A stretch of DNA of 64,000 nucleotides from contig NZ_CP021323.1 of the NCBI RefSeq assembly GCF_002155145.1, forward strand, positions 2,914,001 to 2,978,000. Reading direction: 5' to 3'. A program made the position numbers and the translations under genes. Under the pieces are notes generated by a model, which worked only from the letters and a program-made list of their open reading frames with translations, was not told where the DNA came from and searched no databases. Source of the stretch: Kushneria konosiri (GTDB taxonomy: Bacteria; Pseudomonadota; Gammaproteobacteria; Pseudomonadales; Halomonadaceae). Shown here piece after piece: positions 48,865-56,421 of the stretch; position 1 is the stretch's first letter; every line of letters starts with the position of its first letter.

Positions 48865-50775
48865 TCAGGTATTTTTTTCAACCTGCTTGAGCAAATTGTG
48901 CATTTGAGCGAGCCCGATTTCACCCTGAGTACGCTGCTCGGTCATTTCCTGTCCATCACTGAAAAACAGCAGTGCCGGTGGTCCGAAAAGACCATAGCGT
49001 TTGAGTAGCGAGCGTACTTCCGGGCCGTTGTCGGTCACATCCAGGCGGATCAGGTCAAAGCCCTGAAGCTCTCGGCGTATATCGCTGTCTCCCAGGACAT
49101 CTCGCTCAAAGCGACGACAGCTGATACACCAGTCAGCATAGACGTCGACCATGACCGGTCCATCGGCACGCCGGATGATATCGTCAAGGGCCTGACGGGT
49201 TGTCACGGTGGTCATGTCAAAGGATGCGGTGTCGCTGGTGTTCGTAGCGACACGCTCGCCTGCCAGCGGCATCCATGGATCATCATGTCCCATGGCAGCA
49301 CCGATCAGACACAGCACACCCCAGAGCAGAACCAGCAGGGCCAGGGCCTGACGAACACGTGACCAGAGTGCCTGCTCGCTTGCTGACAGGGCGCCCATGC
49401 CGACACCGGTCAGTATCGCAAGGCTACCCCAAAGCGCCAGCGACAGGGTCGGTGGAATCAGGCGGTCAATCAGCCAAAGGGCAACGCCTGCCAGCGCCAC
49501 GGCAAAAAGCTGACGTACACCTTCCATCCAGGGGCCGCTACGCGGCAGCCAGCCGGCACCGAGCGTGGCGATCAGTATCAGGGGAAGGCCCATGCCTGCT
49601 CCGAGCGCCAGCAGGGCCAGCATGCCGATCAGCGGATCAGCCCCGGCGGAGAGATACACCAGCACGCCGGCCAGCGGGGCCGAAATGCAGGGTGAGACGA
49701 TCAGGGTCGACAGGGCACCGGCAAGTGCGGCACCGGGCATGCCGGCATGGCGTAGCCGATCCTGCCAGGCATTGATACGTTGTTGAAGAGGGCCGCCGGT
49801 CGGAAGCTGCCAGGCGCCCAGAAGCCACAGGGCCAATACGATAAAAAGGCCAGCAAAGGGGATCAGTACCCAGGGCGATTGCAAACGCGCCTGCAGGTTG
49901 AGACTGGCGCCGAAAAGGCCCATTAGCGTTCCCAGGGCGGCATAGGTCAGCGCCATGCCGGTGACATAGGCCGATGACAGGGCCAGTGCCCGACGCTTGC
50001 CGGTATTCTGGCCGACCACCAGAGTGGTCACGATAGGCAGCATGGGCAGCACGCAAGGGGTGAAGGCAAGCCCAAGACCTGCCAGAACGAAAATTCCCAT
50101 CATGACCAGTACACTGGACTGGCCGGGCAGGGCCGCTGCCCCGGTGCCCTCATCAGATGATGAGCGTGTGGCAGTATCGGGTTCAGGCGATGATTCATCC
50201 GGCATTCGAGCGCCAATGAAGCGCTCGGGCGTGGCACCTGGTGCTGCCTGAAGATGACGTGTTTCGGGCGAGTAGCAAAGGCCGGCTTCTGCGCAGCCCT
50301 GAAAATGAATGCGAAGGGGTACCGCTGCATCATCGGGAAGCGGCGTTTTCAGCGTCGCCGTCATGATCAGCGGCTGATGAAAAACCTCCACATCGCCCAG
50401 AAATTCATCGTGAATGGCTTTTCCACGTGGAATGTTGGGCGCGCTCAGGGTGATGTCGGCACGGTCACTTTCAAGGCCGAAGCGATGACGGTAGAGGTAG
50501 TAGGCTTCGGCGCTTGCAAATCCCACCTTGATCGTATTGCCTTCGCGCCATGCTTTATAGGTAAATGCCTGATCCACCGGCAGGAAGTCGGCGTCGTCTG
50601 AAGCATTTCCCGAGGTTGCCTGCCATGGAGAGTTCGAGGTTGCGCTATCGACACGGCTGGCACCCTCAACGACCACATCGTCGCTGGCACTGGAAAAGAT
50701 ATCGCTTGCAGGGGCTGCGCCTGACAGCACCGCGCCCAGCAGGGTAACGATTAACAAAAAGAGGGCGCGCGACAT
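48865..50775 (-). CDS. dsbD: Thiol:disulfide interchange protein DsbD
   Basis: Inner-membrane protein of 636 residues that carries electrons from cytoplasmic thioredoxin to the periplasm. A signal peptide is followed by a periplasmic alpha domain with CAEAGLC, then the eight-helix beta domain with Cys pairs in FTPCVLPMLPI and VSPCISAPLAGV, and a C-terminal thioredoxin-like gamma domain with ADWCISCRRFE near residue 550. All three cysteine pairs are present, so it should be active in cytochrome c and DsbC reduction. GGAG lies 6 nt before ATG 50775; ATG 50778 is too close to it. It precedes accB with 229 nt between. Confidence 0.95.
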   Translation of the reverse strand: MSRALFLLIVTLLGAVLSGAAPASDIFSSASDDVVVEGASRVDSATSNSPWQATSGNASDDADFLPVDQAFTYKAWREGNTIKVGFASAEAYYLYRHRFGLESDRADITLSAPNIPRGKAIHDEFLGDVEVFHQPLIMTATLKTPLPDDAAVPLRIHFQGCAEAGLCYSPETRHLQAAPGATPERFIGARMPDESSPEPDTATRSSSDEGTGAAALPGQSSVLVMMGIFVLAGLGLAFTPCVLPMLPIVTTLVVGQNTGKRRALALSSAYVTGMALTYAALGTLMGLFGASLNLQARLQSPWVLIPFAGLFIVLALWLLGAWQLPTGGPLQQRINAWQDRLRHAGMPGAALAGALSTLIVSPCISAPLAGVLVYLSAGADPLIGMLALLALGAGMGLPLILIATLGAGWLPRSGPWMEGVRQLFAVALAGVALWLIDRLIPPTLSLALWGSLAILTGVGMGALSASEQALWSRVRQALALLVLLWGVLCLIGAAMGHDDPWMPLAGERVATNTSDTASFDMTTVTTRQALDDIIRRADGPVMVDVYADWCISCRRFERDVLGDSDIRRELQGFDLIRLDVTDNGPEVRSLLKRYGLFGPPALLFFSDGQEMTEQRTQGEIGLAQMHNLLKQVEKNT

Positions 50776-50835
50776 CATGAACTCCGCAGCGCTGGCATAT
50801 CACAATGCCGAAAGTGAAAAAGAGGTGGTGCCGGA

Positions 50836-50947: not shown

Positions 50948-51484
50948 TCAGTGACTTTCCTTCTGGAAGGCATCAATGGATTTTTCGATGGCCTTGATGG
51001 CGGCTGCCTTGTCGCCCCAGGTATCTATCTTGACCCACTTGCCCTTTTCGAGATCCTTGTAGTTTTCGAAGAAATGGGCGATCTGCTGACGCAGCAGCTC
51101 GGGCAGGTCGGTGACTTCCTCGACATCGTCGTAGGCTGCAGAAAGCTTCTGGTGCGGTACGCAGATCAGCTTGGCATCTTCGCCGGCTTCATCGGTCATG
51201 TGCAGGATGCCTACCGGGCGAGCGCGGATGACACAGCCGGGCTGTACCGGATAGGGCGTGACGACCAGCGCGTCCAGCGGATCCCCGTCATCAGCCAGCG
51301 TATTGGGAATGAACCCATAGTTGGCCGGGTAGAACATCGGGGTCGGCATGAAACGATCGACCAGCAGCGCGTCGAGATCCTTGTCGATTTCATACTTGAT
51401 TGGCGTATGGTTGGCAGGAATTTCAATCGCCACGAACAGGTCGTGGGGAACATCCTTGCCGGCGGGGATCTTGTCGAAACTCAT
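50948..51484 (-). CDS. ppa: Inorganic pyrophosphatase
   Basis: Mg2+-dependent hydrolase of pyrophosphate, 178 residues, family I. Active-site pieces: [25 protein letters not shown] with Glu and Lys, [23 protein letters not shown] (the DxDPxD block) and KLICVP plus [16 protein letters not shown] near the C-terminus. It pulls biosynthetic reactions forward by removing PPi. ATG 51484 has AAGGA 8 nt upstream. It stands alone between two terminators and faces, divergently, the degenerate phosphatase/kinase gene; the PPi-dependent phosphofructokinase gene lies 2 kb to the right. Confidence 0.97.
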
Positions 51485-51641
51485 CGATCGAGTCCTTGCG
51501 TTTGCGGGTTGAAAATTCGAGAGTGAAAATCGTGGAAAATTATACGAACCAGGCAGGACGATTACCAATCCGGTCGATCGGCAGCTCCCGATCCGCACAA
51601 TACGATAAAACCTTTGCCTCGTAAAAAAGGATGCCAGTGAC

Positions 51642-53402
51642 GTGCAAAATGGCCTGTCTTTAAGTTTCGGACATGCGTTCGTGGCGCCTGATCAACGCCG
51701 TCACCGCTCATCCATGTCGGTCCAGATCCCCGACAACCCGCGTCAGCTTGAAGCCAAGGGCGCCTGTGCCATCATCGCGGACTCGACCTGGCGCAATGCC
51801 ATCGCCCGTCAGGCGGGCGATATCTCCGTGCGTGGTTTTCTGGCCGACTACTATTCCACCCCCGATCACTGGGACATCAAGACCTCGGCGACGAGAGTCC
51901 TGCGAGCGCTTAACGGCTGGTGCTATAGCCAGAGCCGCTATGTTCAGGGGGGCAGCTATATCAGTTCCCTGTCCGCCATTATCTTTCGTGGCCGGGAAAG
52001 TTTTCTGTTTCACATGGGCGATACGCTTGTCTTTCGCCTGAGAGGCGCCGAATTCGAGCAGATTTCGCGTGATCATGTCACGGATCTGGGAGGATATCGC
52101 TATCCTTCTCGTGCGCTGGGCATGGACAATAACATCGATATCGATCACATGACCCTGCCGCTCAAGGCTGGCGATGTGTTCCTTTTTACCTCGCAGGCCG
52201 TGCGCGGAACGCTGACGCCCACGGACTATGTCCACGCTATTCGCCAGCAGGATAACGATCTTGATGCTGCCTGTGAGCGCCTGGCCGGCATGGCGCGAGA
52301 GCGCGCCGGGGCGCGCGGCTATGGTGCCGAAGCCTTCTGTTTTCAGCTGGTCAGGATTGAGGGAATACCCAGTGAAGAGGCCGGCCCAGCCTCCCAGCTG
52401 CCCGGGCAAATGCCGATTCCGGCCGAGCTGGAAGCAGGAGATCGCATCGATGGCTTTCTCATTGAAACAATTATTTCGAAAACGGCGCACGCGCATGTGT
52501 ACGGCGTTCGGGATGAGACCTCGCTGCGCCGGATGATCATGAAGGTTCCAAGCCCGGAGATGTCGTCCAGAAATCCGTATCTGGAGCATTTTCTGCTACA
52601 GCAGTGGATCGGCGAGCGAGTGCGCTCGCCCTTTGTGGTGCGCATCGTGACGCCGCCCCGACCACGGCGTCATCTTTACTATCTGATGCGACCGGTCGAA
52701 GGTCAGCCGCTTGATCAATGGCTGGAGCAGCATCCCGAAGCCGGTATCGAGCAGCGGCTGGATATCGCACGCCAGCTCGCCCGTGCCGTGCACGCCCTGC
52801 ATCGTCGGGACATTCTTCATCAGGCCATTCGTCCTGAAAACATCATGATCGATGAACATGATCAGGTTGTGCTGATCGATTTTGGTGCCTGTGCCCGTCG
52901 GCTTGACGATGACAACAATGCTGCGCTGGCACTGGCACGCGAAGGCCGGCTGGGTATGCATAGTGCGCCAGAGTATGCCCTTGGGCTTGGGGTCAGTCGC
53001 CGGAGCGATCAATATTCACTGGCTTCGACCACCTATTGGTTATTGACAGGCGCCATGCCCTATACCGTGGCCCCCAATACGTTGAAAGATGAGCAGGCAT
53101 TGTCAACGCTGATCTATCGTCGCGCTCGTGATATCAATCCACAGGTGCCGGTGGCGCTGGACAATGCGCTGCAGCGTGCGCTCTCGCCGCGTCGGGCCCT
53201 GCGCTTCAGGCGTCTGTCCGAGCTGATTCAGGCGCTGCGTTATGCCACCACGTTTGTGGACGATGACGACGATGAGTCGCTTTCGCTCGTGTCAAAGCCT
53301 GCCTCTGAAACACTGCCTCCCCGGCAGAAATCCCTGCGGGTGTGGCAGGGCATTGCGGCGGCACTGCTGGTGCTTTTGCTCGCCGTCATGCTGATCAAAT
53401 AG
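51642..53402 (+). CDS. Degenerate PP2C phosphatase-protein kinase fusion (likely pseudoenzyme)
   Basis: Membrane-anchored protein of 586 residues: a PP2C-like domain (about 1-240), a protein-kinase-like domain (265-535) and one C-terminal helix ([16 protein letters not shown]). The same build occurs in bifunctional kinase/phosphatases of proteobacteria. Most PP2C metal ligands are gone: the N-terminal N-x-D site reads HRS (21-23), the DG of ADG is DS (47-48), the TDG block is SQA (184-186) and the late DDN is AEA (229-231). GD at 126-127 remains. In the kinase part the ATP Lys (IMK, 301) and DFG (413-415) are kept, but the catalytic HRD is HQA (393-395), Asp replaced by Ala. It starts with GTG at 51642, AAGGA 10 nt upstream. 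It probably acts as a sensor or scaffold. No neighbour shows its partner. Confidence 0.82.
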
Positions 53403-53424: not shown

Positions 53425-53460
53425 TTAAAAACCCCCGGTCACACGGAGGTGACCGGGGGT
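53425..53460 (-). terminator. Terminator of pfp
   Basis: Minus-strand ACCCCCGGTCAC and GTGACCGGGGGT form a 12-bp stem with a 6-nt loop, then TTTTAAT. It closes the pfp transcript and faces the end of the kinase-like gene. Confidence 0.88.
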
Positions 53461-53498: not shown

Positions 53499-54758
53499 TT
53501 AAAGGTGATATTCCGGCAGCTTTTTGGTGATGCGCTCTAGACGCAGGGAGGCGACCTTCGGCAGACCGTTTTCAAACGGAGGAAAGTCCTCACCCTGAAT
53601 CAGCGGGCGCAGATAGCGACGTCCGGCGTCGTTGATGCCAAACCCATCTTCACGGATATATTCCGCCGGCATGAACTTTTCCTGATTTGCGACCTGCTCG
53701 AGTGGGGCATCGATGATCGACCAGCTATAGGGCTCGTCGCTGTCACGCTGAATGGCCGGCATGACGGCGTTTTTGCCTTCAAGGGCGCATTCAACGGCAC
53801 GCTGACCCACGGCGTAGGCCTGCTCGACATCAACGGCAGACGCCAGATGGCGCGCGGCACGCTGAAGATAGTCGGCCACGGCCCAGTGGTACTTGTAGCC
53901 CAGATCCTGTTTGACCATGCCGGCAAGTGTCGGAGCCACGCCGCCCAGCTGGCGATGACCGAAGGCATCGGTATTGCCGGCATCGGCCAGGAAAGTGCCG
54001 TCTTCATAGCGAGCACCTTCAGAAACCACCACCACGCAGTAGCCGTGTTTCTTGACCGCTGCATCGATATGGTTCATGACGCGCTGGCGGTCGAAGGGCA
54101 CTTCCGGCAGCAGAATCATGTGCGGGGGGCCATCATTGGTTTCGCTGGCCAGCGCACCGGCTGCAGCAATCCAGCCGGCATGGCGGCCCATCGATTCCAG
54201 GATGAACACCTTGGTGGAGGTGGAACACATCGAGGCGATGTCCAGTGCCGCCTCACGCGTCGATGTCGCAATATATTTGGCCACCGAGCCGAAGCCGGGA
54301 GAGTTGTCGGTAATCGGCAGGTCGTTATCGACGGTCTTGGCCACATGGATGGCCTGCAGCGGGTAGCCCATCTGCTCTGACAGACGTGAAATCTTCAGGC
54401 AGGTGTCGGCACTGTCGCCGCCGCCGTTATAAAAGAAATAGCGAATGTCGTGAGCCTTGAAGACTTCGATAAGCCGTTCGTACTGGCTGCGATGCGTCTC
54501 GATATCCTTGAGCTTGTAGCGACAGGAACCAAAGGCGCCGCCCGGGGTATGTCTTAGTGCTGCAATGGCCTCGTCACTTTCCAGGCTGGTATCAATCAGA
54601 TCCTCGGTCAATGCACCGATAATGCCATTGTGTCCGGCATAGAGCTTGCCAATGCGATCGCTGTGTTTGCGGCATGTTTCGATAACACCGCAGGCACTGG
54701 CATTGATCACGGCCGTCACACCACCTGATTGTGCGTAAAAGGCGTTACTGGAGGTCAT
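53499..54758 (-). CDS. pfp: Pyrophosphate-dependent 6-phosphofructokinase
   Basis: Phosphofructokinase of 419 residues that uses PPi in place of ATP and is reversible. The PPi signature is seen twice: YNGGGDSADT, with Asp at the position where ATP enzymes have Gly, and AKTVDNDLPITDNSPGFGS, with Lys where ATP enzymes have Gly. Further blocks are YAGHNGIIGAL and ESMGRHAGWIAA (substrate Arg and Met-Gly-Arg). Halomonads lack a classic ATP Pfk in many cases, so this enzyme may serve glycolysis, gluconeogenesis or sugar phosphate balance, using PPi that Ppa would otherwise destroy. ATG 54758 has AGGA 6 nt upstream. Confidence 0.93.
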   Translation of the reverse strand: MTSSNAFYAQSGGVTAVINASACGVIETCRKHSDRIGKLYAGHNGIIGALTEDLIDTSLESDEAIAALRHTPGGAFGSCRYKLKDIETHRSQYERLIEVFKAHDIRYFFYNGGGDSADTCLKISRLSEQMGYPLQAIHVAKTVDNDLPITDNSPGFGSVAKYIATSTREAALDIASMCSTSTKVFILESMGRHAGWIAAAGALASETNDGPPHMILLPEVPFDRQRVMNHIDAAVKKHGYCVVVVSEGARYEDGTFLADAGNTDAFGHRQLGGVAPTLAGMVKQDLGYKYHWAVADYLQRAARHLASAVDVEQAYAVGQRAVECALEGKNAVMPAIQRDSDEPYSWSIIDAPLEQVANQEKFMPAEYIREDGFGINDAGRRYLRPLIQGEDFPPFENGLPKVASLRLERITKKLPEYHL

Positions 54759-54919
54759 GAGCTTCCTGCTTCTTATGAATGAAGGTCGGCCAACGCCGTG
54801 GTTGCTGATCGAACTGTCTCTCGGCAACGTGGCGCGCCTCTTGTGGGCTGCGCTGCTGTTGGTCGATCAGCGGATCGATGGCCGGCATCGGGCATCGCCC
54901 GTGGGGGCGATCATATCCA

Positions 54920-55035: not shown

Positions 55036-56421
55036 ATGCATATTCATATTCTCGGCATCTGTGGCACTTTCATGGGCAGCCTGGCGCTGCTGGCACGCGA
55101 GCTCGGGCATCAGGTGACGGGTTCGGACAAGGGCACCTATCCGCCCATGAGCACACAGCTTGCCGCACACGGCATTGATGTCGGCCACGGTTTTGACGCG
55201 GCCAATCTGCAGCCTGTCCCCGATCTGGTGATCATCGGCAATGCCCTTTCACGCGGGAATGTCGAAGTCGAGGCTGTCCTCAATCAGCGTATTCCCTACA
55301 CCTCGGGGCCTCAGTGGCTGGCGGATAATGTGCTGCGTCATCGGCGCGTGCTGGCGGTGGCGGGAACCCATGGCAAGACGACCACGGCCAGCATGCTTGC
55401 GTGGATTCTTGAAAGTGCCGGTCTGGCACCGGGCTTTCTGATTGGAGGTATTCCACGCAATCTGGGAATTTCGGCGCGAGCCGGGTCGCATGACGGCGTC
55501 TTCGTGATCGAGGCCGATGAATACGATACGGCCTTTTTCGACAAGCGCTCCAAGTTTGTTCATTACCTGCCGGAAGTGGCCGTGCTCAATAATCTGGAAT
55601 TTGATCACGCCGATATTTTTACTGATCTGGCTGCCATCGAGCGTCAGTTCCATCATCTGGTACGGCTGGTGCCGGGCAATGGTCAGCTGGTGGTGGCCGA
55701 CAATGAGCCTGCACTGTCACGAGTGCTCGAGATGGGGGCCTGGTCGCCAATTGCCCATTTCGGCCGTATGGATCACTCGCAGTGGCGGCTCGAGGATGGT
55801 CCTGAAGACCAGCAGTTTGTTGTCAGATCGCCTGACGGTGAAGTGTTGGTGCGCTGGGGCATGAGCGGTGAGCACAATCGCTGCAATGCGCTGGCAGCGA
55901 TGGCAGCGGCCAGCACCATGGGCGTGACCATTGAACAGTCTGCGGCAGCGCTTGCTACATTTGCATCACCACGACGGCGTCAGGAGCTGCGTGGCCGCGT
56001 CAATGACATTCAGGTCATCGATGATTTTGCTCATCATCCTACTGCGATTGAGATGACGCTGGCGGGGCTTCGGGCGGCGTCATCCCGTGGACGACTGATC
56101 GCCGTCATCGAGCCGCGCTCCAACACCATGAAGCTGGGCACCATGAAGGCTCGACTGCCGGCAAGCGTTGCCAGTGCCGATGAGGTTTACTGGTATCAGC
56201 CGGCGACGCTGGGGTGGTCCGTGCTTGAAGTGGCGAAGGCCTGCCCGATACCTGCTCATGCCATGACCACCACCGAGCAGTTGATCGATGCGCTGGTCGA
56301 AAAGGCCCGCCCGGGAGATCGTATCGTGATCATGAGCAACGGCGGTTTTGATAATGTGCACGAACGTTTGCTGGACGCTCTTGGCCAGTATTATGGACAG
56401 GAGGTGGATGTCGGGGCCTGA
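55036..56421 (+). CDS. mpl: UDP-MurNAc:L-Ala-gamma-D-Glu-meso-DAP ligase
   Basis: Recycling enzyme of peptidoglycan: it joins the tripeptide L-Ala-D-Glu-mDAP to UDP-MurNAc in the cytoplasm, 461 residues. Mur ligase blocks: MHIHILGICGTFMGSLALLARELG at the N-terminus, AGTHGKTTTASMLAWILE (ATP loop), EADEYDTAFFDKRSKFVHY, NNLEFDHADIF, SGEHNRCNALAAMAAA and DDFAHHPTAIEMTLAGLR. These fit Mpl rather than MurC by the short N-terminus and the YDTAFFDKRSKF segment. It starts 16 nt after GACGGAG. Confidence 0.95.
   Translation: MHIHILGICGTFMGSLALLARELGHQVTGSDKGTYPPMSTQLAAHGIDVGHGFDAANLQPVPDLVIIGNALSRGNVEVEAVLNQRIPYTSGPQWLADNVLRHRRVLAVAGTHGKTTTASMLAWILESAGLAPGFLIGGIPRNLGISARAGSHDGVFVIEADEYDTAFFDKRSKFVHYLPEVAVLNNLEFDHADIFTDLAAIERQFHHLVRLVPGNGQLVVADNEPALSRVLEMGAWSPIAHFGRMDHSQWRLEDGPEDQQFVVRSPDGEVLVRWGMSGEHNRCNALAAMAAASTMGVTIEQSAAALATFASPRRRQELRGRVNDIQVIDDFAHHPTAIEMTLAGLRAASSRGRLIAVIEPRSNTMKLGTMKARLPASVASADEVYWYQPATLGWSVLEVAKACPIPAHAMTTTEQLIDALVEKARPGDRIVIMSNGGFDNVHERLLDALGQYYGQEVDVGA

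Follow-up and report, generated by a model that had tools for sequence, protein, structure and literature searches.

What maintains a protein whose phosphatase and kinase halves both lack catalytic residues, and from what did such a protein descend? The question is raised by a gene of Kushneria konosiri (Halomonadaceae) that lies on the plus strand of the window, by which we mean the whole 64,000-nucleotide stretch analysed here (NZ_CP021323.1, positions 2,914,001 to 2,978,000). A preliminary description of this DNA had proposed a double pseudoenzyme, turned perhaps into a ligand-binding scaffold or membrane sensor. Sequence comparison lends good support to a clade of dead but selectively maintained double pseudoenzymes with a traceable origin, to which the window protein belongs and in which catalysis has very probably been lost. 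The reading frame is uninterrupted over its 586 codons, and its layout is as follows:

51642 to 53402, plus strand: gene of the putative double pseudoenzyme, 586 amino acids, GTG start, with PP2C-like and kinase-like domains, a linker and a C-terminal membrane helix
51642 to 52376, plus strand: pseudophosphatase (PP2C-like) domain, residues 1-245, from the AlphaFold2 model compared with tPphA and PppA
52434 to 53246, plus strand: pseudokinase domain, residues 265-535, from Pfam Pkinase (75.6 bits) and the model compared with PknB
53334 to 53399, plus strand: hydrophobic helix at the C-terminus (residues 565-586), which probably anchors the protein in the membrane, from the AlphaFold2 helix 560-585 and the sequence

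An N-terminal PP2C fold, a C-terminal kinase fold and a terminal hydrophobic helix were all recovered by Pfam and structure prediction. The AlphaFold2 model, computed from 78 of the 144 homologues described below, has a mean predicted local distance difference test score (pLDDT) of 90.3 and a predicted template modelling score (pTM) of 0.64, and the structural matches listed for it are kinases and PP2C phosphatases only. Residues 7-239 superpose on the PP2C phosphatase tPphA (5d2u; Z 26.9, root-mean-square deviation (rmsd) 2.4 over 215), residues 2-240 on PppA (6jkv; Z 26.9) and residues 263-537 on PknB (5u94; Z 27.7, rmsd 2.3 over 251), and the chain ends in helix 560-585. Because of the alignments to tPphA and PknB, both folds are predicted to be intact. 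In profile searches the Pkinase score stands well above the Pfam cut-off of 31.7, and PP2C_2 reaches 11.8 bits, under its cut-off of 24. Among the eight relatives scanned, the four intact ones all passed the PP2C_2 cut-off and the four pseudoenzymes gave no PP2C_2 row at E ≤ 0.01. This constitutes a likely annotation trap, as in the five pseudoenzyme sequences scanned Pfam finds the kinase half and not the PP2C half over cut-off.

We aligned 144 distinct homologues and split them by the residue at position 395, the aspartate of the kinase HxD motif: 73 sequences lack it and 71 carry it, its presence in 71/71 of the latter being a matter of definition. The window protein itself (L025), a sequence from another phylum with the kinase half only (L024) and 36 duplicates had been left out before alignment. 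Two further sequences, a split gene from genome G204 (L065) and one that stops before the kinase half (L075), were excluded from the tree and from the conservation analysis and are still counted among the 73, hence n = 72 at kinase positions. All 73 sequences without the HxD aspartate come from the window's family or from named Halomonadaceae genera; outside the family, motifs were checked in fetched loci hand-picked from the rows listed, and there may be further variants there, intact or dead. The ADG, SDG and DN motifs were matched to solved PP2C enzymes by aligning tPphA and Stp1 with one of the intact homologues, and the roles assigned to the residues are those of PPM1A (in part from PMC12002173). 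The positions that matter are these:

51705 to 51710, plus strand: R22-S23, replacing the E/Q/D-D pair of the first PP2C metal motif (R in 72/73 and S in 73/73 pseudoenzymes; E/Q/D and D in 71/71 others)
51780 to 51782, plus strand: D47, the ADG aspartate, kept, with ADG changed to ADS (D in 72/73 pseudoenzymes and 71/71 others)
52089 to 52100, plus strand: G150-G151-Y152-R153, newly invariant loop near the old active site (weighted conservation 1.00 each in the pseudoenzyme clade; variable in others)
52194 to 52196, plus strand: Q185, replacing the metal aspartate of SDG/TDG (Q 64, R 7 and P 2 of 73; D in 71/71 others)
52314 to 52322, plus strand: R225-G226-Y227, part of a clade-only insertion beside the old DN motif (73/73, 73/73 and 71/73; a gap in 71/71 others)
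52329 to 52334, plus strand: E230-A231, replacing the DN motif (at 230, D 36 and E 26 of 73; at 231, N in 4/73)
52542 to 52544, plus strand: K301, the β3 lysine, kept (70/72 sequences with a residue there)
52599 to 52601, plus strand: Q320 in place of the αC glutamate (Q in 72/72; E in 71/71 others)
52824 to 52826, plus strand: A395 in place of the catalytic aspartate, HQD to HQA (Asp in 0/72 of the pseudoenzyme clade; others defined by Asp)
52878 to 52886, plus strand: D413-F414-G415, DFG intact in the window protein, DFS commonest in the clade (D in 71/72; at 415, S 47 and G 18 of 72)

The motifs on which the preliminary description was built, namely HRS at residues 21-23, SQA at 184-186, AEA at 229-231, HQA at 393-395, Lys301 and the DFG of 413-415, are read correctly from the DNA, and HRS, SQA, AEA and HQA are abnormal by the standard of the intact homologues. 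All 71 of these carry the canonical aspartates 23, 47, 185 and 230, glycines 48 and 186 and asparagine 231 in the PP2C half, together with Lys301, the αC Glu320, Asn400, Asp413 and Gly415 in the kinase half. In the pseudoenzymes, D23 is serine in 73/73 and D185 is Q, R or P in 73/73, and the window protein has S48 and A186 where the 71 have glycine; a PP2C fold deprived of metal ligands in this way matches the definition of a pseudophosphatase. Three acidic PP2C motifs had been described as lost, and for the first two this stands. The third, DN, is on present evidence weakened rather than erased, because D or E occupies position 230 in 62/73, including the glutamate of AEA in the window protein; the asparagine at 231 is gone in 69/73 (alanine in the window). 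Two PP2C aspartates that had gone unmentioned are also retained, D47 of ADG and D127 of GD, the latter in 73/73.

The kinase half tells a similar story. The loss of the catalytic aspartate holds throughout the clade, where position 395 is occupied by Q 27, R 19, A 10, H 5, L 4, G 4, N 2 and S 1 times (n = 72), and it is accompanied by a loss absent from the preliminary description, since the αC glutamate that pairs with Lys301 has become glutamine in every sequence covering it. The window protein thus lacks both the HxD aspartate and the lysine-glutamate pair of an active Hanks-type kinase, and a kinase fold with at least one of the Lys/Asp/Asp triad missing is by definition a pseudokinase. 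The nucleotide-binding side is better preserved, as N400 is retained in 69/72 and K301, N400 and D413 occur together in 67/73. Apart from L075, whose sequence stops short of the kinase half, every one of the 144 has either all or none of the family residues at positions 23, 185, 320 and 395. As the losses recur in 73 distinct sequences and no mixed sequence was found, chance is excluded as their cause; losses unique to the window protein were likewise considered and ruled out, and the alignment presents them as family-wide and ancestral.

That the gene is no random decay product, as the preliminary description had argued from its open frame, is borne out by codon comparison and by its distribution. 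In seven same-genus pairs, treated with a simple NG86 count in which synonymous divergence (dS) is near saturation for L006, the ratio of nonsynonymous to synonymous change (ω) is 0.050-0.109 for the whole gene; the PP2C half by itself gives 0.029-0.084 and the kinase half 0.027-0.087, and the linker (residues 536-564) is much freer at 0.19 upward. The same pairs, with not every gene represented in every pair, gave ω of 0.016-0.036 for what we take to be a pyrophosphate (PPi)-type phosphofructokinase gene (pfk), 0.013-0.057 for accC, 0.013-0.115 for ppa, presumably an inorganic pyrophosphatase gene, 0.034-0.181 for prmA, 0.078-0.106 for mpl, presumably a murein peptide ligase gene, and 0.148-0.213 for dsbD. 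As an observation in its own right, the dsbD-like gene of the window (48865-50778) evolves clearly faster than its neighbours in the Kushneria pairs (0.148-0.213).

Conservation within the clade suggests where this constraint now acts. Mean conservation in the pseudoenzymes is 0.76 for the PP2C half and 0.68 for the kinase half, and 0.60 for both in the other set, absolute values that are not comparable between the sets because the pseudoenzymes are less diverse (effective sequence numbers 24 and 59). Residues R22, S23, G150, G151, Y152 and R153 and the R225-G226-Y227 insertion are newly constant, G151 and R153 in 73/73. In the pseudoenzymes, conserved positions are in excess in the PP2C site loops relative to the rest of that half (32/61 versus 64/184, odds 2.1, Fisher p = 0.016), with no significant excess in the kinase site loops (12/46 versus 51/225, p = 0.70); the intact homologues show an excess at both sites (PP2C odds 3.9, p = 4e-5; kinase odds 2.6, p = 0.016). 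Together these comparisons suggest signs of retooling at the pseudophosphatase site and none that is significant at the kinase site.

The gene is close to universal in the family. A match was found in 249/250 sampled family genomes and in 24/24 genera, the sole miss being a genome (G089) that is 88% complete, and carriers include named Kushneria, Salinicola, Halomonas and Vreelandella. The match is at E ≤ 1e-160 in all but one of the 249, the exception (G086) being a partial match over residues 4-251 with dead PP2C motifs (L075); the best match outside the family is at 1.2e-110. The check for dead motifs covered the 73 aligned sequences. In a sample of the whole order, 183/390 genomes match at E ≤ 1e-60, the 18 family members listed scoring at least 743 bits; outside the family the highest score is 370 bits. 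In genome G204 the gene is split into two overlapping matches (G204:C1:3478509-3480219; residues 5-436 and 428-584), through a frameshift or an assembly error. A second match occurs, by row count, in 46/250 family genomes. All eight second copies examined (L076-L082, L130) are intact and fall in a separate clade linked to fnt, which we take to encode a formate/nitrite transporter, and the five of the eight whose flanks were fetched all lie behind fnt. The intact second PP2C/kinase of some Halomonadaceae (L126-L130, L076-L082) forms a regulator-transporter pairing with fnt, on which no paper appeared among the literature matches listed.

Where the pseudoenzyme came from can be read from its tree and its surroundings. 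In a tree rooted on seven metagenome-derived sequences, 71 pseudoenzymes form one clade (support 1.0, stem 0.71), which is sister to L137 plus L144 (parent support 1.0); next comes a group of 33 (0.875) that holds most copies linked to nasA, and the FNT-linked copies make up a separate clade of 26 leaves (support 1.0). The labels nas, nir and fnt are presumed identifications, by way of similarity to proteins named from sequence. The NasA-linked enzymes of other families of the order (L099/L163, L092/L131, L137) have, by alignment, the same length, domain order and C-terminal helix as the window protein at about 33-38% identity. They differ in having intact catalytic residues and a gene close behind nasA in a nitrate-assimilation cluster. 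The FNT-linked PP2C/kinases (second copies, L076, L079, L130) also share the architecture, and in some species the cell, and differ in their separate clade, their position behind the transporter gene and their intact active sites. The window places the pseudoenzyme gene among the following neighbours:

50948 to 51598, minus strand: ppa, presumed inorganic pyrophosphatase, divergent neighbour and old synteny anchor (600 bases or less upstream in 36/38 pseudoenzyme loci)
53499 to 54827, minus strand: presumed PPi-type phosphofructokinase homologue, convergent neighbour (next match downstream in 27/38 pseudoenzyme loci, some flanks being short)
55036 to 56421, plus strand: presumed mpl, second synteny anchor (downstream in 26/38 pseudoenzyme loci, several flanks being short; near some NasA-linked copies too)

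In the 38 pseudoenzyme loci, no match to nasA, fnt, nirB or nirD occurs in the fetched flanks, and the clade is therefore not found close behind nasA or fnt. In 56 other loci, hand-picked from the rows listed, the nearest searched upstream gene within 600 bases is nasA in 26, fnt in 23 and neither in 7. The genes ppa, mpl or pfk lie near 9/26 of the nasA-linked loci versus 0/23 of the fnt-linked ones. One such locus (L163) runs ppa, nirD and nirB in one direction and nasA, the kinase/phosphatase gene, mpl and ubiX in the other; three more (L132, L133, L162) have the order ppa-nirD-nirB-nasA-kinase/phosphatase, and L167 reads nasA-kinase/phosphatase-pfk-mpl. In the Halomonadaceae the order is ppa-kinase/phosphatase-(pfk)-mpl without the nas genes, save for L118, with about 5 kb of other genes between ppa and the pseudoenzyme gene, and L125, with no searched neighbour. 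By tree and gene order alike, the pseudoenzymes share common descent with the NasA-linked copies, which in several loci share the ppa/mpl neighbourhood.

Since ppa, mpl or pfk flank nine of the 26 NasA-linked copies, these neighbours look ancestral and therefore give no hint of a pyrophosphate role. Such a role, suggested by adjacent ppa and pfk, was considered and rejected; in L118 and L119 there is no pfk match between the gene and mpl. L168 has the order ppa-nirD-nirB-kinase/phosphatase-mpl with no nasA match, and in L168, L169 and L144 nirD-nirB adjoin an intact kinase/phosphatase gene with no nasA match between, possibly an intermediate of cluster break-up. In the window itself, the ppa frame at its greatest length extends into the intergenic space; the conserved protein probably begins at an ATG close to position 51484, with about 160 bases then left for the divergent promoter region. 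Between the pseudoenzyme gene and pfk, positions 53431-53460 hold a G+C-rich hairpin of 12 pairs with a T run on the minus strand, probably a terminator.

We therefore propose, as the simplest history, vertical descent at one site from a bifunctional kinase/phosphatase encoded behind nasA and, in some relatives, between ppa and mpl. Along the stem of the Halomonadaceae, nirD-nirB-nasA would have left from between ppa and the kinase/phosphatase gene, and both active sites would have lost essential residues, the protein being kept thereafter in nearly every species for a non-catalytic role. For that role we infer ligand binding, scaffolding or membrane sensing: the rebuilt phosphatase pocket (R22/S23, G150-G151-Y152-R153, R225-G226-Y227) would recognise a ligand that is anionic or else a (phospho)protein, relaying or scaffolding of the interaction would fall to the kinase fold, possibly with ATP bound, as the joint retention of Lys301, Asn400 and Asp413 would allow, and the C-terminal helix would hold the complex at the inner membrane. 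Taken whole, as a NasA-linked enzyme's descendant with both activities lost and a membrane-anchored non-catalytic binding role, we hold this account to be probable, with a good deal of room for error. The narrower proposal that the dead PP2C domain acts as receptor to a phosphoprotein or to a small anionic molecule, with R22, R153 and R225 standing where metals once held phosphate, is tentative and, in that specific form, doubtful.

Several observations weigh against parts of this account. The exact sister relationship to L137 plus L144 could be an attraction artefact because the stem branch is long, and the NasA-linked L150, L157 and L159 fall outside the main NasA group, so that NasA linkage does not mark a single clade. 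The pseudoenzyme gene is under looser constraint than accC and pfk, resembling mpl and being tighter than dsbD. The loop comparison is suggestive only, as its windows were hand-picked after the alignment had been seen, and its p of 0.016 is modest; the same loops are more enriched in the intact set (odds 3.9 versus 2.1), which indicates that part of the old PP2C-loop constraint has also been lost. In the kinase half, the catalytic and DFG loops alone (7/20 versus 56/251, odds 1.9, p = 0.27) allow for some kept constraint. D47, Q185 and D or E at 230 occur together in 53/73 pseudoenzymes and might be enough to retain a single metal. Some members may be unable to bind ATP, since the catalytic-loop asparagine is gone in three sequences and the β3 lysine is replaced in two, by alanine in one and arginine in the other. 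Finally, kinases dead by sequence can have other chemistry, as described for SelO and SidJ in the passages covered of a review of bacterial pseudokinases (PMC12599244).

That last precedent underlies the proposal of an enzyme with other chemistry, such as ATP-dependent transfer of AMP or glutamate by relocated residues after the manner of SelO and SidJ. Lys301, Asn400 and Asp413 would in principle suffice for Mg-ATP, but position 395 wanders among Q, R, A, H, L, G, N and S, the αC glutamate is gone, the kinase site no longer stands out significantly in conservation, and two members lack the lysine and three the asparagine; we consider such an enzyme distinctly unlikely. An ordinary kinase or phosphatase that tolerates its altered residues is extremely improbable. 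The intact DFG and lysine of the window protein, its D47 and the D or E at 230 in 62/73 speak for it, but the HxD aspartate and αC glutamate are lost in 72/72 and D23 and D185 in 73/73, all being kept in 71/71 of the others, and PPM phosphatases, in the part of the source covered, depend on two or three metals (PMC12002173). The opposite extreme, a decaying relic yet to be lost, would suit two broken active sites and the gene of G204 split over two overlapping stretches; it is largely refuted by the low ω, the presence in 249/250 genomes, the folds predicted intact and the new invariant residues, and we find it scarcely credible.

Two further alternatives give the dead protein a partner. A dead regulator that still serves nitrate or nitrite uptake, binding a NasA-type transporter whose gene lies elsewhere and controlling it solely by contact, would accord with descent from a NasA-linked enzyme, and the window genome does hold nirB, nirD, nasC and weak nasA matches at about 1.69 Mb (L186, G000:C1:1680000-1699000), with no kinase/phosphatase match there. 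NirB, however, has no match in 34/121 family genomes, and the pseudoenzyme gene is present in all 20 of these listed, and its general purpose therefore lies elsewhere than in nitrate assimilation by way of NirB; the second matches of 46 genomes, intact in the eight copies examined and placed behind fnt in the five with flanks, also tell against this alternative, which we judge unlikely. The pseudoenzyme might instead serve as allosteric partner to an active kinase of the Hanks type, or to a PP2C_2 phosphatase, within its own cell, a role taken by many pseudokinases in eukaryotes. A possible partner is L187 (G000:C1:108729-109280), in which a SpoIIE-type phosphatase follows a receiver-like domain; it is the sole match over cut-off in the genome for the two PP2C-superfamily models searched, PF13672 and PF07228. 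The pseudoenzyme is, however, the only Pkinase match over cut-off in the window genome, the one genome searched in this respect, a second weak match of 19.3 bits reading as a lipopolysaccharide-kinase-like protein, and no PP2C_2 match was found in it. Regulation of another Hanks kinase in this genome was rejected, there being no other Pkinase match over cut-off, and the wider allosteric proposal is very unlikely.

Set against known pseudoenzymes, the preferred reading, a non-catalytic protein derived from a NasA-linked enzyme, has partial parallels on each side. EssB/YukC of type VII secretion is not known to have a phosphatase half, and TAB1 and PHLPP2, animal PPM pseudophosphatases, are not known to carry a dead kinase in the same chain. 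TAB1 and PHLPP2 share a PP2C fold with lost metal ligands, but they are eukaryotic and bind one metal ion, the residual one of the M2 site; lineage-wide loss of PPM activity has an animal precedent (PMC12002173, in the passages covered). Across the literature passages covered, PPM pseudophosphatases are described from eukaryotes only. EssB/YukC is likewise a membrane-bound bacterial pseudokinase acting as a scaffold, according to the covered part of the pseudokinase review (PMC12599244), but it belongs to Firmicutes, has all three catalytic motifs degraded and has a known role in secretion. The CP1, GLW, DLHK and DYD families are alike in combining a bacterial kinase fold with broken motifs and differ in linked domains or motifs. 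As given in that review, CP1 carries COG3899 and no membrane segment, in contrast to the PP2C-like domain and terminal helix of the window protein; GLW proteins have GLW for HRD and Leu or Trp for the β3 lysine, where the window protein has HQx and Lys301; and the DYD family of actinobacteria and firmicutes has arginine for the β3 lysine and a DYD motif, where the window protein has Lys301 and DFG.

A text search of the review, as far as its text was covered, returned no mention of PP2C or Halomonas. A survey of bacterial PP2C proteins describes members with kinase domains, mainly in Pseudomonadota, and the word "inactive" was not found in the part of it covered (PMC12088040). Among the matches listed in our literature search, where a paper that is missing may still exist in print, none dealt with this protein, with any pseudokinase of Halomonads or with a double pseudoenzyme of the PP2C-kinase kind, and none gave transposon-mutant data in Halomonas or treated PA1782 or a nasA-linked kinase.

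Bacterial pseudokinases are known in sequence, few of them with known function (PMC12599244, passages covered), and here both halves of a phosphorylation switch appear to have died together in one chain. Some relatives still carry intact orthologues at the corresponding place in the chromosome, so that the states before and after the loss can be compared residue by residue. If the receptor proposal is true, a phosphate-cutting enzyme would have turned into a phosphate-reading membrane sensor in nearly all Halomonadaceae, without a detected Hanks kinase in this genome; and the near-universal presence of the gene in a family that includes laboratory strains makes the role of a dead kinase/phosphatase in bacteria directly testable.

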